A stretch of 64,000 nt of DNA, from positions 4,774,001 to 4,838,000 of the forward strand of contig NZ_CP098604.1 in the NCBI RefSeq assembly GCF_024499015.1, in the 5' to 3' direction. The DNA comes from Xanthomonas hortorum pv. pelargonii (lineage in GTDB: Bacteria > Pseudomonadota > Gammaproteobacteria > Xanthomonadales > Xanthomonadaceae). The notes beneath the pieces are model-generated. The model had not been told where the DNA came from and did not search any database. It saw only the letters and a program-made list of their open reading frames with translations. How positions within the stretch are numbered: position 1 is the stretch's first letter; every line of letters starts with the position of its first letter. Below are positions 1 to 12,539 of this stretch, one piece after another. Position numbers and translations under genes: made by a program.

Positions 1-490
1 GGCTGACGCCGCCGACCACGTAGACCGGAATGTGCTTGGGCAGCACCGAGCGCAGCGCGCGCACGTGTGCGGCGCCATACGTCGCGGCCGGGAATAGTTT
101 GAGGATGGTGGCGCCGGCGTCGATGGCGTCGAACGCCTCGCTGGCAGTGGCGAAGCCTGCCACCACGGTGAGCCCGCGCGACACCGCATGGCGGATCAGC
201 GACGGACGCGTATTCGGGGTGACGATGAAGCGCGCACCGATCTCGGCCAGGGTGTCGACGTCTTCGTTGCGCAGCACGGTGCCGGCACCGATCCAGGCGC
301 GCTCGCCGTAGGTCTGCTGGGCCAGCGCGATGCTCTCGGCCCAGCGCGGCGAATTGAGCGGGATTTCGATCGCGTCGAAACCGGCATCGATCAGCGCGCC
401 GACATGGTCGAGTGTTTCTTCCGGCGTGATGCCACGCAGGATGGCGATCAGCGGCAGGGCGAACAGGCTGGCAGTGGTGTCTGAGGTCAT
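1..490 (-). CDS. dgoA: 2-dehydro-3-deoxy-6-phosphogalactonate aldolase, 3' end outside window
   Basis: The enzyme cleaves 2-dehydro-3-deoxy-6-phosphogalactonate to pyruvate and glyceraldehyde-3-phosphate, the last step of the De Ley-Doudoroff galactose route, in the cytoplasm. Reading left from the ATG at 490 gives 163 codons that run off the window edge. The KDPG/KDPGal aldolase pattern is clear: IAILRG near residues 15-20, Glu42 in AIEIPLN, GAGTV around 68-72, and the Schiff-base lysine Lys131 in ILKLFPA. A candidate regulated promoter lies about 360 bases upstream (846-887). The link to the locus is that galactose released from xyloglucan by the GH35 enzyme could enter this pathway; that is inference. 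The family call is firm. Confidence 0.93.
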   Translation of the reverse strand, partial: MTSDTTASLFALPLIAILRGITPEETLDHVGALIDAGFDAIEIPLNSPRWAESIALAQQTYGERAWIGAGTVLRNEDVDTLAEIGARFIVTPNTRPSLIRHAVSRGLTVVAGFATASEAFDAIDAGATILKLFPAATYGAAHVRALRSVLPKHIPVYVVGGVS

Positions 491-494
491 CGGG

Positions 495-596
495 TTACTC
501 GCGATAGAGCGGAAAGCGGCCGTCGGCGACCAGATGGCCGGCAACGTCGGGGGAGCTTGCGCAACTGCGCGCTGCAAACGTGGTCTGCAGGCGCAC
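495..596 (-). other. 33-codon open frame ending just before dgoA, possible gene remnant
   Basis: A GTG-initiated frame of 33 codons ends with TAA four bases before the dgoA ATG, the spacing expected of an upstream operon partner. Its last residues read VADGRFPLYRE. The frame is closed by a TGA just before the GTG, so no complete gene precedes dgoA. I do not recognise the peptide. It could be the tail of a deleted gene or chance. Between 597 and 845 I see no other supported gene. Confidence 0.25.
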
Positions 597-845
597 GGTG
601 AAAGATCAGGAACATGGGGGCGGGCAGGGTGCCGCGACGCAATGACGGGCCGATTGCAGCAATTGCGTGCGCACTCCAACAGCCTGCAATGGGCTGGCAA
701 GATGCCGTCATCGTCGTCCACCTCCGCAGTCATGGCATGCGTGTTGCCACCTTGTGGAAGATGGGTCACGTCTGTTCTGGCCGCGCCCGGGAGGTCGGGG
801 CTCCTGGTGCGGCGTTCGATAGCCTTGCGCGGGGAGATATGTGCT

Positions 846-887
846 GCAAATGAAATTTTCGGCATATTCTATTCCTCCTACGAATAC
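846..887 (-). promoter_or_regulatory. candidate LysR-type operator and promoter facing dgoA (and lysR start)
   Basis: CTATTCC (869-875), five bases, then CGAATAC (881-887) forms an imperfect inverted repeat of T-N11-A form. Read on the minus strand, GGAATAG is followed after exactly 13 bases by TTTCATTTGC (plus 846-855). The same layout occurs before both TonB receptors (1893-1934 and 5180-5221). The element ends 19 bases before the LysR ATG, so it could serve both dgoA activation and autoregulation. Confidence 0.6.
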
Positions 888-905
888 ACCTTCGCGGCGA
901 CCTCC

Positions 906-1876
906 ATGGCAAATTCCGGTACTCCCTGGTTCAACGCAGCCCGGCTGAAGACGCGTCAGCTCTTGTTGCTGCTGCATTTGCACGAACAGCGCTCGGTCCT
1001 GCGTGCGGCCGAGGCTGCCAGCATGACCCAGCCGGCCGCCTCCAAGCTACTGGCGGAAATGGAGGACATGCTGGGGGTGAAGTTGTTCGAACGGCATGCG
1101 CGCGGGGTCGAGCCGACCTGGTACGGCCATGTGCTGATCCGGCGGCGCGCGCGGCAATGTCGGAGATCGGCCGGGCGCAGGAAGAGATCGCCGCACTGCG
1201 TGCCGGGCGCATGGGTCAGGCCTCGATCGGTACGGTGGTCAATCCGGGCACCAATCTGGTGCCGCAGGCGATTGCCGAGGTCAAACGCGAGTTCCCGGAC
1301 ATCCTGGTGCGGGTGGAAATGGACTACAGCCGGCCGCTGGTGGCCAAGTTGCTGGATGGCCAGCTGGACATCGTGATCGGCCGCATCCTGGGGCCGGAGG
1401 GCGTGGGCGAGCTGGAGTTCGAGCCGCTGGCCGACGAGCCGCATTCGGTGATCGCACGTGCCGGCCACCCGCTGGCCAGCCGCGCCGGTCTGCAGCATGC
1501 CGATCTGGTGCGCTATGGCTGGATCCTGCCGCCGGCCGACAGCGTGCTGCGCGCGCGGCTGGATTCGATGTTCATGGAGCACGGCGTGCAGACACCGACC
1601 AATGCGATCGAGACCTCGTCCTTGCCGGTCACCTCGACCCTGCTGCGCGGCACCGACATGTTGACCGCCTTGCCGGTGGAGTCGGTGGCGGCGCTGATCC
1701 AGGCCAAGCTGCTGACCGTGCTGCCGATCGAACTGGGGGTGCGGATGGAGTCGTTCGGCATCATCCGCCGGCGCGATTACATCCTGCCGCCGGGTGCCGA
1801 GCGCATTTTGCAGGCGCTACGCACCACCGCGCGTCGTTTGTATCCGGCTTTGCGCGGCCCGGAATCCCTTGGCTAA
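906..1876 (+). pseudogene. LysR-family transcriptional regulator, frameshifted
   Basis: The first frame (ATG 906) encodes an N-terminal winged helix-turn-helix of LysR type: LHLHEQRSVLRAAEAASMTQ, then PAASKLLAEMEDMLG and LFERHARG. The second frame (from 1157, MSEIGRAQEEIAALRAG) encodes the whole substrate-binding domain, ending at 1876. The two halves join in phase if one base is restored in the GC run at about 1139-1157, so the gene has lost one base there. The divergent arrangement with dgoA suggests a sugar-acid or galactose-responsive regulator of GbpR type, and the three matching operators suggest that it controls the xyloglucan receptors. As written, the product would be a DNA-binding stub. 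A sequencing error is the main alternative. Confidence 0.8.
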
Positions 1877-1892
1877 GCGAGCTCTGCCATTT

Positions 1893-1934
1893 CTATTCCG
1901 TCAGGGAATAGTAGTTCGTGATTTTTTCATTGGT
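1893..1934 (+). promoter_or_regulatory. candidate LysR-type operator and promoter of receptor 1
   Basis: CTATTCC (1893-1899), gtcag, GGAATAG (1905-1911) is a perfect 7-base inverted repeat with the T-N11-A form of LysR-type sites. After 13 bases comes TTTCATTGGT (1925-1934), whose TTGGTT or the overlapping TTGACG (1934-1939) can act as a -35; TATATC at 1954-1959 is a possible -10. The operator centre would lie near -60 to -70, the usual place for a LysR activator site. Confidence 0.62.
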
Positions 1935-2118
1935 TGACGCTAGATCACGCGCCTATATCTGTGAGTCAGATCGCACGCTGAAGCGCACGTGAAGTCGGGC
2001 AGGTGATCGGCGGCCAAGCCGCCATGCAGTGGGAGGGTGGACCCGCACGCTCGCGTGCGGATCCCACACGATCGTGCGGCCCGCTTGCGGTGCCGCGACA
2101 ACCAGTCTTCAGTCGTCT

Positions 2119-2134
2119 TGCGTCCTGGGAGGGA
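2119..2134 (+). promoter_or_regulatory. conserved 16-base leader with ribosome binding site, receptor 1
   Basis: The 16 bases TGCGTCCTGGGAGGGA lie just before the receptor 1 ATG (2140) and are repeated exactly before receptor 2 (5387-5402), although surrounding bases differ. The GGGAGG core is a strong ribosome binding site and fixes the ATG at 2140 as the start rather than the in-frame codon at 2029. Confidence 0.6.
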
Positions 2135-2139
2135 TTCGG

Positions 2140-5070
2140 ATGTACACCTTTTCAAGCCATGCACCGGCAGGTACGGGCGTGCGCGCTCGCCTTACCTTGC
2201 GTTTGCCTCATTCCGCCATGGCCGTCAGCATTGCGCTGCTTCTCGCAGCGCCGGTTTATGCCCAGCAGGCGCAGACGTCACAGAACGCTCCGCTCACCAA
2301 TGCCGGCGGCAACGCCGTGGATCTGGATGCGGTGGAAGTGCGCGGTGTGCGCGCCAGCCTGATCAAGTCGCAGGTAATCAAGCGCGACGCCAGCCAGATC
2401 GTGGATTCGGTGAGTGCCGAAGACATCGGCGCCTTGCCCGATCGCAGCGTTACCGAAACCCTGCAGCGCGTCAGCGGCGTGACCATTGATCACTTCGCCG
2501 CGCGCAGCGACCCCGATCACTTCTCGGCCGAAGGCAGCGGGGTGATGATCCGCGGCCTGACCCAGGTGCGCGGCGAACTCAATGGGCGCGACATCTTCAG
2601 CGCCGCCAGCGGCCGCGGACTGAGCTTCGAGGACGTGCCGGCCGAGCTGATGGCCGGTGTGGACGTCTACAAGAATCCCTCGGCCGAAATCATCGAGGGC
2701 GGCCTGGGCGGCACGGTCAACCTGCGCACGCGCATGCCGTTCGACAATCCGGGCCGGATCGTCGGTGGCAATGTCGATTACAACTACGGCGACATGAGCA
2801 AGCAGTACAAGCCGTCGGCCTCGTTCCTGTTCAGCGATCGCTGGGACACCGGCATCGGCGAGATGGGCTTCATGATCGACATCGCGCATTCGGAGCTGGC
2901 AACGCGCTCGGACGGCATCCAGGTCGAACCGTACGTGCGGCGTACCGACGAGGCAGTGCTGGCCGGCAGCGGGCGCAGCGAGGTGTATGTACCGGGCGGG
3001 GTGAACTGGCGTCAGCTGGATTTCGAGCGCAAGCGCGACGGCATTGCGGCCGCCTTCCAGTGGAAGCCCAGCGATGCCACCGAGATCTATGCCCAGTTCC
3101 TGCGTTCGCGTTACGAGATGAACTGGCAGGAGCGCGCGGCGTTCTTCAACGACAGCAACAACAGCATCACCCCGGCGCCGGGCACCACCTTCGACTACGA
3201 CGATCGTGGCGGGTTTCTGCGGGGCTCGCCGGTGTCCAGCTCATGGCGCGGTGTGCTTACCGGCGATGGCGTGCGTTTCAATACCGACAACCGCTATTCC
3301 GAACAGCGCACCACCACCACCGACCTGTCGGTGGGCTTCAGCCACTTCTTCAACGACAACCTGCAGATCAAGGGCGATATGCAGTTGGTGCAATCGGAGA
3401 ACGAGCAGCTGGATTTCACCGTGTTCAGCGCGACCTATCTGCCTGGGCTGTCTTATGACGTGTCGGGCAAGTATCCCAGTGTGCAGATCGCCAACCCGGC
3501 CTTTACCCAGGATCCGTCCAATTACTTCTGGGCGGCGGCGATGGACCACCTGGGCAAGAATCGCGGGCGGCAGCTGTCCACCCGCGTGGATCTGGAATAC
3601 ACCTTCGATGACAGCAGCTGGCTGCGCTTTGCGCGCTTCGGCATGCGTGCCACCGACCGCAATCAGATCAACAAGAACTCCGGCTACAACTGGGGCGTGA
3701 TCTCCGACAACTGGGCCGCGATTCCGGGCACCAGCAATGGCCTGGCGAACATGTCGGAGTTCATGACCGATCAGTCGTCGTTGTTCACCTTCTCCAACTT
3801 CTTCCGCGGTGGGGTGAACGTGCCGACCACGTTGGTGGTGCCCAACAGCAGCCTGGTCAACAACTACGGCTCGGCCTCGCAGATGATCCAGCAGATCGTG
3901 GCGCTGCGCGGCTATGGCTGGGCACCGGACACCTATCAGCCGCAGGATACCAACCGCCAGTTCGAACGCACCCAGGCGGCGTATGCAGCGCTGTACTTCG
4001 GCAACGACGAGGCCTGGGGCATTCCGGTGGACGGCAACGTCGGCATCCGTGTGGTGCAGACCAAGACCCATGCCGAAGGCTTCGGCCAGTTTCAGAATCT
4101 GGCCGGCCTCAATGTCTCGCCCGAACTGCAGGCGCGCTACACCGGGCAGTATTTCGAGAACAATTCCGAAGGCAGCTACACCAATGTATTGCCCAGCTTG
4201 AACCTGCGTCTGCGCTTCACCGACACCTTGCAGTGGCGCTTTGCCGCCTCCAAGGCGATGGCGCGCCCGGATTACACCCAGCTGCAGCCGTATGTGTTGC
4301 TCAACGTGGAGACCAACGACGCCGGCCAGGCCACCGACTTCGTCGGCACCGCCGGCAACCCGAACCTCAAGCCGATGGTGGCCAACCAGTTCGACACCGC
4401 GCTGGAGTGGTACTTCGACACCAGCGACATGCTGTACGCCACGCTGTTCTACAAGAAGGTCAAGGATTACTTCTCCACCCAGACCCGCAACGAGATCTAC
4501 GACAACCGCGCATGGCTGGTGACGCGCCCGTACAACATGGACGAGGGCACCATCCGCGGCGCGGAACTGGGCTATACCCAGTTCTTCGATCAGTTGCCGG
4601 GTTGGCTGAGCGGGTTCGGCGTCAATGCCAACTTCACCTTCGTCGATAGCCAGGGCGGCGCCAACACCGCGACCGACCCGTACACCAACACCACCGTCAC
4701 CGGCGTCGAGTTGCCGCTGGAAGGCTTGTCGCGGCGCAGCTACAACCTGGCCGGCATCTACGAGAAGGGTCCGCTGTCGCTGCGACTGGCCTACAACTGG
4801 CGCTCGCGCTATCTGCTGACCACCAGCGACGCGGCCACGCGCCTGCCGACCTGGGCCGACGACTATGGCCAGCTCGACGGCTCGTTCTTCTATCGCTTCA
4901 ACGACCATCTGCAGTTGGGCGTGCAGGCCAACAACCTGACCAACACCGTGACCAAGGTGTTGATGGGGCCGACCTCGTACGAAGGGGGCGAAGTGGACCC
5001 GCGCTTGTACACGCGTTCTTCGTTCGTCAACGACCGGCGCTATTCGCTGGTGCTGCGCATGAGCTGGTAA
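2140..5070 (+). CDS. TonB-dependent outer membrane receptor 1 (xyloglucan locus)
   Basis: This outer membrane receptor probably imports xyloglucan oligosaccharides using TonB-ExbBD energy. The product is 976 residues. A signal peptide ends at about VYA (residue 41). A TonB-box-like stretch (DAVEVRG) follows, then a plug domain with DIGALPDRSVTETLQRVSGV and GLGGTVNLRTRMPF. A long beta-barrel follows, ending in an aromatic residue (LRMSW). The start at 2140 is chosen from the conserved leader and ribosome binding site; the same frame is open back to 2029. It is followed by a paralogue of the same layout. The substrate is inferred from neighbours, not from the receptor sequence. The frame is intact. 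Confidence 0.93.
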   Translation: MYTFSSHAPAGTGVRARLTLRLPHSAMAVSIALLLAAPVYAQQAQTSQNAPLTNAGGNAVDLDAVEVRGVRASLIKSQVIKRDASQIVDSVSAEDIGALPDRSVTETLQRVSGVTIDHFAARSDPDHFSAEGSGVMIRGLTQVRGELNGRDIFSAASGRGLSFEDVPAELMAGVDVYKNPSAEIIEGGLGGTVNLRTRMPFDNPGRIVGGNVDYNYGDMSKQYKPSASFLFSDRWDTGIGEMGFMIDIAHSELATRSDGIQVEPYVRRTDEAVLAGSGRSEVYVPGGVNWRQLDFERKRDGIAAAFQWKPSDATEIYAQFLRSRYEMNWQERAAFFNDSNNSITPAPGTTFDYDDRGGFLRGSPVSSSWRGVLTGDGVRFNTDNRYSEQRTTTTDLSVGFSHFFNDNLQIKGDMQLVQSENEQLDFTVFSATYLPGLSYDVSGKYPSVQIANPAFTQDPSNYFWAAAMDHLGKNRGRQLSTRVDLEYTFDDSSWLRFARFGMRATDRNQINKNSGYNWGVISDNWAAIPGTSNGLANMSEFMTDQSSLFTFSNFFRGGVNVPTTLVVPNSSLVNNYGSASQMIQQIVALRGYGWAPDTYQPQDTNRQFERTQAAYAALYFGNDEAWGIPVDGNVGIRVVQTKTHAEGFGQFQNLAGLNVSPELQARYTGQYFENNSEGSYTNVLPSLNLRLRFTDTLQWRFAASKAMARPDYTQLQPYVLLNVETNDAGQATDFVGTAGNPNLKPMVANQFDTALEWYFDTSDMLYATLFYKKVKDYFSTQTRNEIYDNRAWLVTRPYNMDEGTIRGAELGYTQFFDQLPGWLSGFGVNANFTFVDSQGGANTATDPYTNTTVTGVELPLEGLSRRSYNLAGIYEKGPLSLRLAYNWRSRYLLTTSDAATRLPTWADDYGQLDGSFFYRFNDHLQLGVQANNLTNTVTKVLMGPTSYEGGEVDPRLYTRSSFVNDRRYSLVLRMSW

Positions 5071-5179
5071 GCGTGCTCGATCACGGTTCCGGCATGCGTT
5101 GGTTCGCAGAGTTGAGCCCGTTTCGGTGAATTCGGCAGCCTGGCCCGCAACGCCAGACCTGCCGGGTTTCTCTATGTTG

Positions 5180-5221
5180 CTATAGGTTTCAGGAATAGCT
5201 CGCCAGGAATATTTCATTGGT
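5180..5221 (+). promoter_or_regulatory. candidate LysR-type operator and promoter of receptor 2
   Basis: CTATAGG (5180-5186), five bases, GGAATAG (5192-5198) repeats the operator layout with one perfect half-site and one partial. After exactly 13 bases comes TTTCATTGGT (5212-5221), identical to the copy before receptor 1. TTGGTG (5217-5222) with TATGCT (5242-5247) is a possible -35/-10 pair with 19-base spacing. A further GGAATA lies at 5206-5211. The rest of 5071-5407 shows no gene. Confidence 0.6.
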
Positions 5222-5386
5222 GTGGCATGACAGCCGCGCCCTATGCTCCGGCCGCAGCCGCTAGGTAAGCCTTATCGGGATTACCACGCATCCAACCAGC
5301 CGCAGCCTTTGCCGTGTGCGGATGCGGGCCAGCAACAACGACGGGCAGGGCGTTCGCGCACCGACCCGCTAAAAATTAGCAGTACA

Positions 5387-5402
5387 TGCGTCCTGGGAGG
5401 GA
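5387..5402 (+). promoter_or_regulatory. conserved 16-base leader with ribosome binding site, receptor 2
   Basis: This is the second exact copy of the 16-base leader seen at 2119-2134. It places GGGAGG before the ATG at 5408 and decides that start over the upstream in-frame codon at 5243. Confidence 0.6.
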
Positions 5403-5407
5403 GCACC

Positions 5408-8142
5408 ATGTCAGTGCAACATCGCCACATTCCGGCAGGCCGGACTGTGGGTCAGCGTTCGATCCGTGATTTCCGCCGCTCCGTGATGGCCATCAGTGTG
5501 GCCACGCTGCTGAGCGCGCAGGCCTATGCGCAAGACGCGACCACCACTGCTGCTCCAGCGCAGGACCCGACCACCCAGCAGCTCGACACCGTGCAGGTCA
5601 CCGGCACCCGCAGCAGCGTCACCAAGGCGCAGCTGGTCAAGCAGAACGCCGAGCAGATCGTCGATTCGATCGTTGCCGAAGACATCGGCAAGCTGCCCGA
5701 CAACAACGTCGCCGAGGCGCTGCAGCGCATCTCCGGCATCCAGATCACCCGCAATTACGGCGAAGGTAGCTCGATCGCCATTCGCGGCCTGACCCAGGTG
5801 CGTACCGAACTCAATGGCCGCGACATTTTCACTGCCAACGACGGCCGTGGCCTGAGCTTCGAAGACGTCTCTGCCGAACTGCTGGGCGGTGTCAACGTCT
5901 ACAAGAATCCTTCGGCCGACATGATCGAAGGTGGCCTGGGCGGCACCGTGGATCTGCGCACGCGCCTGCCGTTCGACTATGAAGGCCGCAAGATCGCCGG
6001 CAGCGTCCAGTACAACCATTACGACCTGGCCGACGACGGCAAGCCGGCGTTCTCGGGCCTGTTCAGCGATCGCTGGCAGACCGGTATCGGCGAAATCGGC
6101 CTGCTGGTGAATTATTCGCAGCAGAAGAGCCCGTTCCGTCAGGACACCATCTCGATCGAGCCGTGGTACACGCAGACCGATCTGCCGGGCTACGAAGGCC
6201 AGGAAGTGTCGGTGCCGCACGGCGCCGGCATCAACACCACCGTCGGTGAGCGCGAGCGCAAGACCGGCGCGTTTGCGATGCAGTGGCGTCCGAACGATTC
6301 GGTCGAGGTCTATACGCAGGTGCTGCGTTCGGAATACGATTTCCGCTGGCAGGATTATTCGTTCTTCGCACTGACGCAGCAAAATCCCATACAAGGGTTG
6401 CCCGGTATCCAGGTCAACGACCGCAACGAGTTCGTCAACGGCTCGTTCCAGAACGTACCGACCGAATCCAACACCAGCCTGACCGAGCGTCATTCGGTGA
6501 CCACCGATTACTCGTTGGGCGCCAAGTGGACGGTCAACGAGAAGCTGACCCTGAGCACCGACTTCCAGTATGTCGATGCCACCACCACCGGCACGCGCTA
6601 CATCGTGGCGACCGGGCAGGACACCAGCCCGCAGTTCAACGTCGATTTCCGTGGCGATCTGCCGCGCCTGTCGGTGACCGATGCTAGCGGCGCTGAAGGC
6701 TACCTTGCCGACGTCAACAACTATGACGGCTGGCGCTACCACCTGGACAACAAGGACGACAACAAGGGCACTGAGTTCGCCTGGCGCGCCGACATGGACC
6801 TGGCGTTCGACAGCGACTTCGTGCGCAGCTTCAAGGCCGGTGTGCGCTACACCGATCGCGATGCCGAGACCAAGGGCAATATCTATCGCTTTATGTGTTT
6901 GAACACCGCATGCGGTGCTGCGACCGACTCGCCATTCGCGGCGTTTCCCAACATTGGTATCGTGACCAATCCAATTACCGATTTTTCCGTGGTGAAAGCA
7001 GCACCTTTGGACGTACGTTGACCGCAGCCAATTCGGCAGTGTCCAACTACGAGCAGACTCTTGCCACCTTCGGCGCCAGTCCGCTTGTATTCGCACCCAA
7101 CAATATTAACGCTCAGACCGAGAAGACCTACGCGGCCTACGGTGTATTGCGCTTCGGTGTGGACAGCGACTCAATTCCGTTTGATGGCAACATCGGCGTG
7201 CGTGTCGTGCGCACCGAGGTCGGTTCAACTGGTGTACGCACCGGCACCGATAGCGAGGGCGGCGGCCTGATTCCAGTAGATGCGCAGCAGACCTATACGG
7301 ACGTGCTACCGAGCCTGAACTTGCGTTGGATGCTGAGCGACCAGTTGCAATGGCGTTTTGCCGCCTCGCGCGGTATCTCACGCCCGACTTTTGATCGCCT
7401 TAATCCAAATTTGAGCCTGGGCACCAACTCTGGCGCAGGCGGCTCCACCTTGGTGGGCAATGCAGGTAATCCGGAATTGGAGCCGGTGAAGGCTGATCAA
7501 TTCGACACTGCGCTGGAGTGGTACTTCGGCCAGGGCTCGATGATGTACGGCACGCTTTTCTACAAAAAAGTAGAGGGCTTTATTGCAAATGCCGTCTTCA
7601 ATGAGATCTACGATGGCCAGCCTGCGCAGATCACCCGTCCGGTCAACGGCGATGCCGGCAAGATCCGCGGTGCGGAACTGGGCTATACGCAGTTCTTCGA
7701 CTTCCTGCCGGGCTGGTTGAGCGGCTTCGGCCTGCAGACCAACTACACCTATGTCGACAGCGAGGCGCCGAGCCCCACTGCGACCGACACCAACGGCCAG
7801 GCACTCACCGTGCCGCTGGAAGGGTTGTCCAAGAACAGCTACAACGCGATCCTCAGCTACGAAACGACGCGCTTCCAGGGCCGTGTGGCCTACAACTGGC
7901 GCAGCGACTGGCTGGTGACCACCGCAGGCAACGGCACTGAAAATCTGCCGGTCTACAACAAGGGCTTCGGCCAGCTGGATGCCTCGCTGCGTTTCAACAT
8001 CAATGATGTGTGGTCGATCTCGCTCGATGGCGTGAATCTGCTCGATACCCGGCGCGAAAGCTATCTGGGTTCCGAGTCGCGCTACCGCGACTTCGTGATC
8101 AACGATCGTCGGTATGGCCTGACCTTGCGGGCCAGCCTGTAG
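5408..8142 (+). pseudogene. TonB-dependent outer membrane receptor 2, one-base frameshift
   Basis: This is a paralogue of receptor 1, of about 911 residues when the frame is repaired. It has a signal peptide ending near AYA, a TonB-box-like LDTVQVTG, and a plug with AEDIGKLPDNNVAEALQRIS and GLGGTVDLRTRLPF. The first frame ends at 7021; the second carries on from about 6987 to 8142 with the rest of the barrel. The break lies in a run of five T at 6982-6986: a sixth T would give ITDFFRGE, matching SNFFRGG at the same place in receptor 1. So one T is missing. As written, the product lacks the second half of its barrel and could not work. A homopolymer sequencing error is equally possible. It is followed by a terminator at 8166-8210. 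Confidence 0.88.
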
Positions 8143-8165
8143 AACGTGCCGTAGGAAGTGCGTCT

Positions 8166-8210
8166 CCGGTCCGGCGAGCTGTGCAGGCAGCTCGTTGGAC
8201 CGGTGTTTTT
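8166..8210 (+). terminator. intrinsic terminator between receptor 2 and the enzyme cluster
   Basis: CCGGTCC (8166-8172) pairs with GGACCGG (8197-8203), and an inner GAGCTG/CAGCTC (8176-8181/8188-8193) extends the stem. TGTTTTT follows. This would stop or attenuate receptor transcripts before GH74. Stem and T-run are directly visible; efficiency is unknown. Confidence 0.75.
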
Positions 8211-8260
8211 CCAGTCGGTGGCCATCATCGACCGCAAAGGGAGCCGGAGGAATGATCGTC

Positions 8261-10516
8261 ATGATCGATCCGCCTACTGAGCGCCGTCGTCTTCGTACGC
8301 AAGCGTGGCAGGCCGGTCTTTGGGCGTTGCTGCTGTTGGCGTCTGTCTTTCGGCTACATGCCGCCGATTCCGGTGCGCAGGGGCCTTACCAATGGCGCAG
8401 CGTCGCCATTGGCGGTGGCGGTTTTGTCACCGGTGTGCTGTTTCATCCCGCAGAGCGCGATCTTGCGTATGCGCGCACCGATGTCGGTGGCGCCTACCGT
8501 TGGGATGCGCGTGCGCAGCAGTGGATCGCACTGACCGACTGGTTGGGAGCCGAGGACTGGAATCTGATGGGGATCGACGCATTCGCGGTCGATCCTGCCG
8601 ACCCGAAGGCGCTGTATCTGGCCGCGGGCACCTATATGCACGAGCGCGCCGGCAATGCGGCGGTGCTGCGCTCGTTCGATCGCGGGCGCAGCTTCGAGCG
8701 TGCCGAGTTGCCGTTCAAACTGGGCGGCAACCAGCTGGGTCGTTCCAATGGCGAACGGCTGGCAGTGGACCCGCACGATGGCCGCGTGCTGTTGCTCGGT
8801 TCGCGCGATGCGGGTCTGTGGCGCAGCACCGATCGCGGCGCGCACTGGGCGCGTGTGGAGGGGTTTCCTGCCGAGGCACTGGCGGGTTCCACTGCGCGTA
8901 ATCATGTTGGACGCGAGCAGGCGGTGGGCATCGCCTTTGTCATGTTCGATGCCGCCAGCGGCAGCGCTGGTGTGCCCACGCCGCGGATCTATGTGGGTGT
9001 GTCTACTGCGCAGACCAGCCTGTATGTCTCCGAAGATGCGGGTCGCAGCTGGTCGGCAGTGGCTGGGCAACCCAAGGGCTTGCGTCCCAGTCATATGGCC
9101 GGTGGCAGCGATGGGCAGTGGTATCTGAGCTACGGCGATCAACCCGGCCCGGATCTGATGGCCGGTGGCGCGCTATGGAAATACACCCCGGCGCAGGCGG
9201 GGTCGCAGGCGCGCTGGAGCGAGATCAGCCCGATCGCGCAGCCGGCCACTGGCGATGGCTTCGGTTGGGGCGCGGTGGCGGTGGATCCGCAACAGCCGCA
9301 GGTGCTCTTGGCCAGCACGTTCCGCCGCTCACCGCGCGATGAATTGTTCCGCAGCGTCGATGGCGGTCGCAGCTGGACGCCATTGTTGGCCGCCTCGCAG
9401 TTCGATCACAGCGCCGCGCCGTGGACCGCGCAGGCGTCGCCGCACTGGATGGGCGCCTTGGCGATCGATCCGTTCGACAGCAATCACGCGCTGTTCGTTA
9501 CCGGCTACGGCATCTGGGCCTCGCGCAATCTGCAGGATTTCGCCAAGCATCAGCGTCCGTTGCAGTGGTGGTTTCAGGACCGTGGGCTGGAAGAAACTGT
9601 GCCGCTGGATCTGCTCAGCCCGATGCAGGGCGCGCACTTGCTCAGCGCGCTGGGCGATATCGATGGCTTTCGGCATGACGATCTGGACCGTGCGCAATTG
9701 CAGTACGCCGGCCCGCGCCTGACCAATGGCGAAAGTATCGATGCCGCCGGGCAGGCCGCGCAGTGGGTGGTGCGCAGCGGCACCGTGCGCAATCGCCGCA
9801 ACAATGAAATCCGCGCGCTCTACTCGCGCGATGGTGGCGCGCAGTGGACAGCGTTTGCCAGCGAGCCGCCAGCGGGGCAGGGCGCCGGCAACATCGCCAT
9901 TTCTGCCGACGCATCCCACGTTGTATGGGCACCGGAGAAAGGTGGCGTGTGGCGCACAGCCGATTTCGGCAAGCAGTGGCAACGTGTGCAAGGGCTACCC
10001 GACACTGCGGTGGCGGTGGCCGATCGCGTCGATGCGCGGCGCTGGTATGCGGTGGATACCGCGAGCGGGCGTTTGTTCGAAAGCCGCGATGGCGCAGCGA
10101 ACTTTCGCGACACCGCTGCGCAGGTCGGCAGCCCGGCGCGCGATGAGCGTGCGCGTCCGCAACTGCGCCCCGATCCGTGGCGTGCGGGCGTGGTGTATCT
10201 GGCCAGCCCCACGCTTGGCGTGATGCGCTGGCAGGACGGTCGTTTGCAAACCTTGTCCACGCCCGACCAGGCGCGTTCGTTGGGCATCGGCAAGGCACTG
10301 CGCGAGGGCGCACCGCCGGCGCTGTATCTGGCCGGCCGCGTGCATGGTGTGGACGGCGTGTTCCGCTCAGACGATGAAGGCGCGCACTGGCTGCGCATCA
10401 ACGACGATGCCCACCGTTTCGGCAAGCCGTATAGCGTCACCGGCGACCCGCGCATTCCCGGGCGGGTGTATTTCGCCACCGGTGGGCGCGGCATCTTCTA
10501 CGGAGATCCACGATGA
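8261..10516 (+). CDS. GH74 xyloglucanase (endo-xyloglucanase), secreted
   Basis: The enzyme hydrolyses the beta-1,4-glucan backbone of xyloglucan. The product is 751 residues of BNR/Asp-box beta-propeller type: repeats such as SFDRGRSFERAELP, SEDAGRSW and SVDGGRSW mark two seven-bladed propellers. The two catalytic aspartates expected for GH74 are visible: Asp74 in YARTDVGGAYRW and about Asp466 in GDIDGF. A signal peptide ends at LHA (about residue 35). The ATG at 8261 is preferred because GGAGG (8246-8250) lies 10 bases upstream; the ATG at 8252 is too close. Its stop overlaps the start of a short bridging frame (10513). It starts the enzyme cluster after the terminator at 8166. Confidence 0.93.
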   Translation: MIDPPTERRRLRTQAWQAGLWALLLLASVFRLHAADSGAQGPYQWRSVAIGGGGFVTGVLFHPAERDLAYARTDVGGAYRWDARAQQWIALTDWLGAEDWNLMGIDAFAVDPADPKALYLAAGTYMHERAGNAAVLRSFDRGRSFERAELPFKLGGNQLGRSNGERLAVDPHDGRVLLLGSRDAGLWRSTDRGAHWARVEGFPAEALAGSTARNHVGREQAVGIAFVMFDAASGSAGVPTPRIYVGVSTAQTSLYVSEDAGRSWSAVAGQPKGLRPSHMAGGSDGQWYLSYGDQPGPDLMAGGALWKYTPAQAGSQARWSEISPIAQPATGDGFGWGAVAVDPQQPQVLLASTFRRSPRDELFRSVDGGRSWTPLLAASQFDHSAAPWTAQASPHWMGALAIDPFDSNHALFVTGYGIWASRNLQDFAKHQRPLQWWFQDRGLEETVPLDLLSPMQGAHLLSALGDIDGFRHDDLDRAQLQYAGPRLTNGESIDAAGQAAQWVVRSGTVRNRRNNEIRALYSRDGGAQWTAFASEPPAGQGAGNIAISADASHVVWAPEKGGVWRTADFGKQWQRVQGLPDTAVAVADRVDARRWYAVDTASGRLFESRDGAANFRDTAAQVGSPARDERARPQLRPDPWRAGVVYLASPTLGVMRWQDGRLQTLSTPDQARSLGIGKALREGAPPALYLAGRVHGVDGVFRSDDEGAHWLRINDDAHRFGKPYSVTGDPRIPGRVYFATGGRGIFYGDPR

Positions 10517-10626
10517 GCGCTGCGTGCCTGCGCGCGTCATCGCGCTGTCTTATCGTGAATGGCGGCGCGTGCCGTCGCATTGTTGCGCGCCGCGTGGCCG
10601 CGCCGACCCTGGAGATCACTGCATGA
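10513..10626 (+). other. 37-codon bridging frame between GH74 and the acetylesterase
   Basis: An ATG at 10513 overlaps the GH74 stop (ATGA), runs 37 codons, and ends in a TGA that overlaps the acetylesterase ATG at 10623 (again ATGA). The peptide is Arg/Cys-rich and resembles nothing I know. Its likely role, if any, is translational coupling across a 106-base gap; it may equally be chance in GC-rich DNA. Confidence 0.35.
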
Positions 10627-12539
10627 CCGCTTCTCTCATTGCCCGCGGCCGCCTGCTGGGCCTGCTGCTGATCAGCCCCGCCGCGTTGGCACAACCTACC
10701 TTGCCGTTGTTGTTTGCCGATGGCGCAGTGTTGCAGCGCGACCAGCCGATGCCGGTGTGGGGTTGGGCATCGCCGAACGCCACCATCACGGTCGGCTTCG
10801 ACGGCAAACGCGCCACTGCCAAGGCCGATGCGAAAGGGCAGTGGAAGGTCAGTCTGCCCGCGCACACCGCCGGTGGCCCTTATGTGTTGAGCGTGCAGGG
10901 CGACGGCGGGGAGTTGCAGGTACGTGACGTGTTGGTCGGCGACGTGTGGCTGGCCAGCGGCCAATCGAATATGGAGTGGCCATTGGCGCAGGCCAGCGAT
11001 GGCGCGCAAGCGGTAGCTGCTGCCAACGACCCGCAACTGCGCCACTTCAAGGTGCCCAAGTCGTGGTCGGTGCAGCCGGAAGCGCACCTGACCGGCGGCG
11101 ACTGGAAGGCCGCCACGCCGGAGAATGCCGGCGAGTTCAGCGCGGTCGGATATTTCTTCGCCAAGGAGCTGCGTGCCAGCACCGGCGTGCCGATCGGCAT
11201 CGTCAACAGCACCTGGGGCGGCAGTGCGATCGAGGCGTGGATGGATGCGGCCTCGCTGGGCTTGAACGCCGAGCAGAATCAGGGCGCGATCGCGGCGATC
11301 AAGCAACGCGATGCCGCCGCGCAGGCCGCCACCGGCAAGCGCATCGCGCGCTGGCCCAAGGTGGACGGCGACACGCCGCAGTGGCGCGAACCGACGTACG
11401 ACGACAGCGACTGGGACAGCATCCCGACCACCCAGCAATGGGAACTCAGCGGCTATGACGGCATGGATGGCATCGCTTGGTACCGCACCACGGTTACTTT
11501 GAGCGCTGCCGAGGCCAAGGCCGGTATTGCGCTGGGCGTGGGTCAGATCGATGACTCCGATATCACCTATGTCAACGGCGCCAAGGTTGGTGAGACCACC
11601 AAGCAGTGGAACCTGCCGCGCGTCTACACCGTGCCGCCTTCTGCACTGCATGCAGGCGTCAACCACATCGCCGTGCGGGTGGAAGATCTCAGCGGTGGCG
11701 GCGGCATGCATGGCCCGGACGAGCAGCGCTTTGTGCAGACCACCGCCGGCGCCATGCGCGCCTTGAGCGGCTGGAAGTTCCGCCCCGCCGCCGTGCGCGT
11801 GTCGCTGGCCGACAACAAGAATCAGCTGCCCACGCTGCTGTACAACCAGATGATCCATCCGCTGCAGCCGTTCCCGCTCAAGGGCGTGATCTGGTACCAG
11901 GGCGAAACCAATGCCAGCGACACCGGCGCGGTGAAATATCGCGAGCAGTTCGCGGCGATGATCCAGCGATGGCGCGCCGAACGCGGTGCGAAACAGCTGC
12001 CGTTTCTGTGGGTGCAGCTGGCCAACTTCAAGGCCGGTGGCGACAAGGGCGAGTTGAGCCCGTGGGCGCTGTTGCGCGAGTCGCAATCCAAGACGCTGGC
12101 GCTGCCATCAACCGGGCAGGCGGTGATCATCGATATCGGCAACCCCACCGATATCCATCCCACCAACAAGCGCGATGTCGGCCATCGTCTGGCGCTTGCG
12201 GCGCGGCATGTGGCTTATGGCGAAACGCTGGTGTACAGCGCGCCGGTGTTCAAGCGCGCAAGCTTCGCCGATGGCCAGGCAGTGCTGAGTTTCGATCTGC
12301 AAGGCAGTGCGTTGCAGGTGCGTGGCGGTGGCCAAGTGCAAGGCTTCCGGGTTGCCGGCGCCGACAAGCAGTTCCATCCGGCCACTGCGCAACTCGATGG
12401 CGATCGCGTGATCGTCCGCAGCGACGAGGTGTCTGCGCCGGTCGCCGTGCGCTACGGCTGGAGCGAAAATCCGGACGACGCCAACCTGGTCAATCGCGAA
12501 CACCTTCCCGTTTCCCCCTTCCGCACCGATACCTGGTGA
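10623..12539 (+). CDS. sialate O-acetylesterase-like xyloglucan acetylesterase (CE20 type)
   Basis: This SGNH-type esterase is expected to remove acetyl groups from xyloglucan oligosaccharides in the periplasm. The product is 638 residues with a signal peptide ending at LAQ (about residue 24). The nucleophile is Ser115 in GQSNMEWPL. Further blocks are [22 protein letters not shown] and the Asp510/His512 pair in DIHPTNKRD. Between the two halves of the catalytic domain (about residues 225-370) sits an inserted beta-rich domain with WYRTTV and [10 protein letters not shown], typical of this esterase group. Known Xanthomonas homologues in the same locus define family CE20. It is followed after 11 bases by the GH35 gene. 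Confidence 0.9.

Follow-up and report, generated by a model that had tools for sequence, protein, structure and literature searches.

We analysed a window of 64,000 nucleotides from Xanthomonas hortorum pv. pelargonii (contig NZ_CP098604.1, positions 4,774,001 to 4,838,000; "the window" denotes this whole stretch), in which gamR, the gene for a LysR-type regulator, lies between dgoA and a xyloglucan utilisation locus that begins with two TonB-dependent receptors. One promoter facing dgoA and one before each receptor (sites A, B and C) carry the same composite element, consisting of the inverted repeat CTATTCC-N5-GGAATAG, 13 bases and TTTCATT, with 21 fixed letters in all. On the sequence comparisons described below, these three sites are very probably operators of the adjacent regulator, GamR. 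Scores of the sites listed here are those of R1, a sequence-only model of 46 columns trained without the X. hortorum loci L006 and L007.

1..490, minus strand: dgoA, 2-dehydro-3-deoxy-6-phosphogalactonate aldolase, cut by the window start (KDPG/KHG aldolase PF01081, 78.2 bits)
852..860, minus strand: site A, second dyad GAAAATTTC (activation-type subsite), then ATTTG (columns 28-36 of alignment A1)
869..887, minus strand: recognition-type dyad of site A, GTATTCGTAGGAGGAATAG, located between dgoA and gamR and oriented towards dgoA (R1 39.3 bits, E 2.7e-9 genome-wide)
906..1876, plus strand: gamR, LysR-type regulator, frame broken in the assembly, intact in relatives, e.g. L006 and L007
1893..1911, plus strand: site B, recognition-type dyad CTATTCCGTCAGGGAATAG (R1 31.5 bits, E 8.2e-7)
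1920..1934, plus strand: second dyad of site B (GATTTTTTC, imperfect), which continues into TTTCATTGGT and overlaps the putative -35 (sequence and alignment A1)
1954..1959, plus strand: putative -10 hexamer (TATATC) in the promoter of receptor 1 (read from the sequence; column class)
2140..5070, plus strand: TonB-dependent receptor 1 (XAC1768 position), with Plug and TonB_dep_Rec barrel
5180..5198, plus strand: recognition-type dyad of site C, CTATAGGTTTCAGGAATAG, with a degenerate left arm (R1 33.2 bits, E 2.2e-7)
5207..5221, plus strand: second dyad of site C, GAATATTTC, which continues into ATTGGT and overlaps the putative -35 (sequence and alignment A1)
5242..5247, plus strand: putative -10 hexamer (TATGCT) in the promoter of receptor 2 (TAnnnT class)
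5408..8142, plus strand: TonB-dependent receptor 2 (XAC1769 position), in two frames (Plug 5408-7018, barrel 6895-8139)
8195..10516, plus strand: GH74-like xyloglucanase, named from its position in the published locus (PMC8245568); Pfam gives only Sortilin/BNR repeats

The gene dgoA is the first of the dgo operon and is followed in relatives by dgoD (MR_MLE) and an SMP-30 lactonase (L006), and by dgoK (DGOK, L035). On the other side of gamR the order by Pfam is two TonB receptors, the GH74-like gene, a SASA-type esterase, GH35 and GH31. This is the same locus as the xyloglucan utilisation locus (XyGUL) of Xanthomonas citri (XAC1768-1774), with its two receptors, GH74, esterase, GH35 and GH31, which the available text reports to be induced by xyloglucan oligosaccharides (PMC8245568).

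Identity of the regulator

Judged by synteny, the LysR gene in the window is gamR (XAC1767), because it adjoins both the XAC1768-type receptor and the dgo operon. The L006 orthologue is a LysR-type regulator by its domains, HTH_1 (PF00126, 61.0 bits) and LysR_substrate (PF03466, 115.8 bits), and, by sequence, its nearest match among solved structures is TsaR (3fxq). Orthologues share 68-100% identity and stand apart from a paralogue group at 39-44%; members of the latter were found in 24 of 39 gamR-bearing genomes (e.g. G188:C1:3794891).

Both the regulator and the locus are already known. In the study of Rashid et al. 2016, GamR is reported to bind in front of the neighbouring galactose operon and to activate it. 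In the accessible parts of later papers, GamR is the LysR-family regulator of galactose metabolism from that study (PMC8245568, PMC7831014, PMC6965072) and corresponds to XAC1767, directly upstream of XAC1768 and beside the xyloglucan locus (PMC8245568); a review states that it binds the hrpG/hrpX intergenic region (reported for X. oryzae) and that virulence in planta was not significantly reduced in the mutant (PMC7831014). The published protein is tied to galactose metabolism and to hrp genes, and within the portion of the open-licence literature available, which does not include the 2016 GamR paper, we found no report of the operator sequence, of GamR control over the xyloglucan receptors or of a galactan member of the regulon. 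As far as the available text of the XyGUL paper goes, GamR is discussed there in connection with hrpX and the regulator of the locus is not named (PMC8245568). A further LysR protein, LcrX, the overexpression of which changes galactonate dehydratase levels in the accessible account (PMC6965072), is a different protein from the window regulator, as told by accession.

The three composite sites

All three composites have the N5 and N13 spacings, with two mismatches in the 21 fixed letters at 849-887 on the minus strand, none at 1893-1931 and three at 5180-5218, both on the plus strand. The initial annotation had described three copies with an exact 13-base gap before TTTCATT, the one before receptor 1 being perfect, and this description holds, as does the placement of all three composites. 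Two details needed correction: the TTTCATT of the minus-strand copy occupies 849-855 and not 846-855, and the distance from this site to the LysR gene is 18 bases (888-905, start codon at 906) rather than 19. The T-N11-A form that it attributed to the repeat is present as TTC-N7-GAA in sites A and B, the left arm being degenerate in site C.

The composite was matched three times in the window and not once in 100 dinucleotide shuffles. The inverted repeat alone, with up to three mismatches, was also found three times, against a shuffle mean of 0.66, and was rejected as evidence in its own right, since 3 of the 100 shuffles reach that count. The spacing was examined in 64 related loci, where matches with at least 18 of 21 letters numbered 100 at a gap of 13 and 0-6 at gaps of 8-12 and 14-18; with at least 16 letters there were 145 at gap 13 and 9-74 at other gaps. 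Varying the inner gap gave 100 matches at length 5 against 0-4 at seven other lengths, and 30 letter-shuffled patterns gave 0-2 matches with at least 16 letters compared with 145 for the real pattern.

In the strain's own genome, for which 150 of 660 first-look candidates were scored, R1 returned five places at E 10 or better, namely the three sites (E 2.7e-9, 2.2e-7 and 8.2e-7) followed by two at 0.10 and 0.82; sites A-C are therefore exactly the matches better than E 0.1 among the candidates scored. The 19-base repeat (at most two mismatches) occurs at five places besides sites A, B and G000:C1:5123975, and none of these five was among the R1 matches at E 10 or better from the same candidates.

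Conservation and co-occurrence with gamR

A search with the C-terminal part of the LysR protein yielded the 64 loci, of which three are distant (L066, L068 and L069) and 61 were kept. At a threshold of at least 15 of 21 letters, including at least six of TTTCATT, the composite is present on the dgo side of 59 of the 61 gamR loci (missing in L042, where the contig ends, and L049) and on the receptor side, before a TonB receptor or GH74-like gene, of 57 (missing in L030, L034, L053 and L060), counts that are not independent, as 27 loci come from close Xanthomonas relatives. Receptor-side sites precede orthologues of receptor 1 or 2, or the GH74-like gene (L047, L048, L056 and L062). The sites span Xanthomonas, Stenotrophomonas, Pseudoxanthomonas, Lysobacter and Luteimonas and are kept where receptor 1 is only about 41-43% identical. 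In the Massilia relative L066, with a GamR of 48% identity, no composite was found upstream. Loss from orthologous promoters, named in the initial annotation as the outcome that would speak against a shared regulon, did not occur.

At E 0.05, R1 has a match in 36 of 61 relatives, among them 33 of the 34 other genomes of the genus, the exception (G002) being 81% complete; two order-level relatives gave weak matches. The co-occurrence of operator and regulator was followed in a sample of 198 genomes of the family at a cut-off of E 0.01, at which about two chance hits are expected. Thirty-nine of these genomes encode gamR (68-100% identity) and 42 have an R1 match, which is found in 39/39 genomes with gamR and in 3/159 without it (Fisher 3.5e-38, a value that ignores phylogeny and the training of R1 on gamR loci). 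The Xanthomonas genome G012 has two receptor sites, and gamR is represented on its contig by residues 298-322 only. In the gamR-free genomes G136 and G202 the matches are partial and lack the first dyad, one lying inside a long open frame and the other between open frames.

Anatomy of the proposed operator

Alignment of 63 non-redundant sites (at least 16 letters, L006 and L007 left out) gave the consensus sTATTC-N6-GGAATAG-N8-GAAWWTTTCATTKG, which includes conserved columns that had no part in site selection (A29 94%, A30 94% and G41 93%). The first dyad is TTC-N7-GAA, of the T-N11-A form that is described as the LysR box in the accessible text of PMC6965072. The second is GAA-N3-TTC and runs into ATTKG, and the centres of the two are 22 bases apart, or two helical turns. 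Their relative spacing is fixed and conserved throughout the family. TTTCATT is not a separate motif: it is the end of the second dyad together with the proposed -35 region.

Among 52 sites that belong to the receptor class or are dispersed, 34 have a hexamer TAnnnT whose start lies 29 or 30 bases from the initial T of TTTCATT; the other offsets counted gave one occurrence. If this hexamer is the -10, the first dyad of the receptor class would lie at -64/-65, and the second, located at -42/-43, would overlie a TTGG-type -35. LysR-type regulators have a recognition site near -65 and an activation site near -35, and the receptor-class geometry fits that of a LysR activator provided that the conserved TATGCT-like hexamer is the -10. 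The arrangement resembles LysR sites in general in its divergent regulator and target, its T-N11-A dyad and, two helical turns further downstream, a second dyad over the proposed -35; particular to it are the common ATTGG part and a 13-base gap of fixed length. Taken together, conservation, co-occurrence and LysR geometry support the proposal in the initial annotation that one regulon may join xyloglucan uptake and a galactose-derived aldolase under the adjacent LysR protein.

Further sites in the genome and the family

The regulon looks larger than the first three promoters. A fourth site in the strain's own genome (R1 E 0.10, 15.3 bits) stands some 270 bases ahead of a TonB receptor gene that is followed by genes for a GH53 endo-galactanase (408 bits; GH53 was checked in this genome only) and a GH2 beta-galactosidase-type protein. 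This galactan-type locus of TonB-dependent transporter (TBDT), GH53 and GH2 (L118:6001-12895, G000:C1:826878 on) adjoins an XRE-type regulator and probably belongs to the same regulon. The fourth site is weaker than the others, with a right arm that is GATAG-like as against GGAATAG, AAA in place of GAA and a degenerate left arm. Orthologous places reach E <0.05 in 6 of 34 other genomes of the genus, and the same arrangement precedes the receptor in 16 genomes examined, with 14-16 of 28 consensus letters; these comprise 11 of the genus and five of another genus of the family (receptor 78-80% identical), or, counted differently, 12 of the 14 receptor-positive genomes and four others. A second model, R2, of the R1 type with dispersed and fourth-class sites added to the training set, recovers four sites in the own genome plus one at E 0.84, the fourth being circular in that its own copy (L104) was in the training set.

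Among gamR-bearing genomes, 12 R1 matches are either on a contig other than that of gamR or separated from it by more than 20 kb. Two of them, in G087 and G159, belong to split contigs, where they come before receptor 2 and the GH74-like gene. The remaining ten dispersed sites (E 0.01 or better) come from five genomes of other genera and stand before nine glycosidase genes, encoding GH43 (four cases: L121, L126, L127 and L129, the last by 84% identity to L126), GH5 with a ricin-type lectin (two), GH39, GH29 and GH97, and one sodium:solute symporter gene. Neighbours were taken as open frames of at least 250 amino acids with high G+C at third codon positions on the strand of the site.

Alternative explanations

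Several observations weigh against GamR as the reader of a single operator. TAnnnT is absent at offset 29-30 from all 16 sites of the dgo-side class and from 18 of the 52 receptor-class sites, some of which have TATATC or TATATG. The full-length loci L034 and L053, and likewise L060, lack a receptor-side site at the threshold used. The co-occurrence is partly built in, as most sites adjoin gamR and R1 was trained on such loci. In this strain's assembly gamR is broken into two frames, and a genome-wide protein search matches only residues 80-323. The hrpX/hrpG-like intergenic region (L120), located through a divergent AraC-type/OmpR-type gene pair, its gene identity being inferred from this arrangement, has a best R1 score of 3.6 bits with filters off and no composite; we rejected hrpG/hrpX as a composite-bearing target, and weak or half sites may occur there. 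Finally, all five genomes with dispersed sites also encode the GamR paralogue (41-42%).

This last point, together with the partial matches in the gamR-free G136 and G202 and the two receptor sites that G012 keeps beside 25 C-terminal residues of gamR, would be explained if another LysR protein read the operators, for example the 41-44% GamR paralogue of many family genomes. We consider this improbable: the strain's own genome has no paralogue at E 1e-60 yet carries the three sites and the fourth, 15 of the 39 gamR genomes lack the paralogue and still have sites, and one site sits in the divergent promoter region of gamR itself in 59 of 61 loci. The R1 matches listed are all more than 5 kb away from any listed paralogue; accordingly, the operator does not appear at the paralogue's own promoter.

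Alternatively, only the part from TTTCATTGG to TATGCT might be real, as a class of TonB-receptor promoter, the upstream repeat being due to common descent or chance. The most invariant columns, ATA (16-18) and TT-ATT (34-35 and 37-39), and the degenerate left arm at receptor 2 and the fourth site could be read in this way. In the dgo-side class, however, the downstream part differs while the dyad and gap are the same, and ATAG, which keeps a constant distance upstream, does not vary even where dispersed sites precede unrelated glycosidases. A tail-only pattern (at most two mismatches) occurs at just four places in the own genome, including site C and the fourth site, which argues that it is not a general receptor promoter; we regard this explanation as marginally less probable again than a second LysR protein. 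Chance likeness of three promoters within one strain finds a parallel in the shuffles that match the count of the bare repeat; it is refuted by the absence of the composite from every shuffle and by conservation across the family, and is scarcely credible.

Proposed regulation by GamR

If GamR is the regulator of these promoters, a GamR tetramer would hold the upstream dyad and contact the downstream one, and a galactose-derived inducer would shift the tetramer and thereby lead to the recruitment of RNA polymerase. On its release from xyloglucan, galactose would thus increase its own oxidative catabolism through the dgo operon together with the receptors and enzymes, and the outer-membrane receptors would import more galactosylated oligosaccharide, forming a positive feedback loop. 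In the divergent gamR-dgo region the same dyad probably also represses gamR. As usually described, GbpR and GguR-type proteins are, like GamR, LysR regulators that answer galactose-type sugars; they control sugar-binding or ABC (ATP-binding cassette) systems and are not known to control TonB receptors. Co-induction is supported by the published rise of XAC1768-1774 on xyloglucan oligosaccharides, on which growth is impaired without XAC1768-69, according to the accessible text (PMC8245568).

A broader reading, the chances of which we see as evenly balanced, is that GamR acts as a family-wide, galactose-responsive master switch for galactose-bearing plant cell-wall glycans. A single composite operator would then connect galactose oxidation, the xyloglucan receptors and xyloglucanase, the TBDT-GH53-GH2 locus for beta-1,4-galactan and, in genomes resembling those of Lysobacter and Pseudoxanthomonas, dispersed debranching enzymes (GH43, GH5, GH39, GH29 and GH97), the terminal sugar reporting several polymers at once. 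If GamR control is correct, it would give a regulator and an operator to the Xanthomonas xyloglucan locus, for which the available text of PMC8245568 describes induction and no regulator, and it would explain how a side-chain sugar, galactose, serves as the signal for glucan uptake. With the 46-column motif model, further members are found in other genera and the regulon becomes testable.

Variation around the locus

Between site A and dgoA, 14 of the 63 sequences searched (Stenotrophomonas, some Pseudoxanthomonas and others) encode a short-chain dehydrogenase/reductase (SDR). For example, in the Stenotrophomonas locus L035 the dgo operon has the order SDR dehydrogenase (L035:8725-9690), dgoA, dgoD, SMP-30 lactonase and dgoK. 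The Xanthomonas loci L006-L032 have no SDR dehydrogenase between site A and dgoA, and in the window positions 491-848 form a leader of about 360 bases where other loci carry the SDR gene.

Receptor 2, split in the window, is one single frame in L006. Relative to L006, the first 11.9 kb (1-11886) contains 28 gap runs in coding and non-coding sequence, 26 of which are not multiples of 3, and it is therefore possible that an assembly error lies behind the broken frames. The gamR genes of L031 and L065 also match in two pieces. In X. nasturtii (L026:10711-15249) site B is some 4.5 kb away from gamR, and a second copy of the gamR C-terminus (residues 269-321) stands at the far end of this interval, an arrangement that looks like the insertion of an element.

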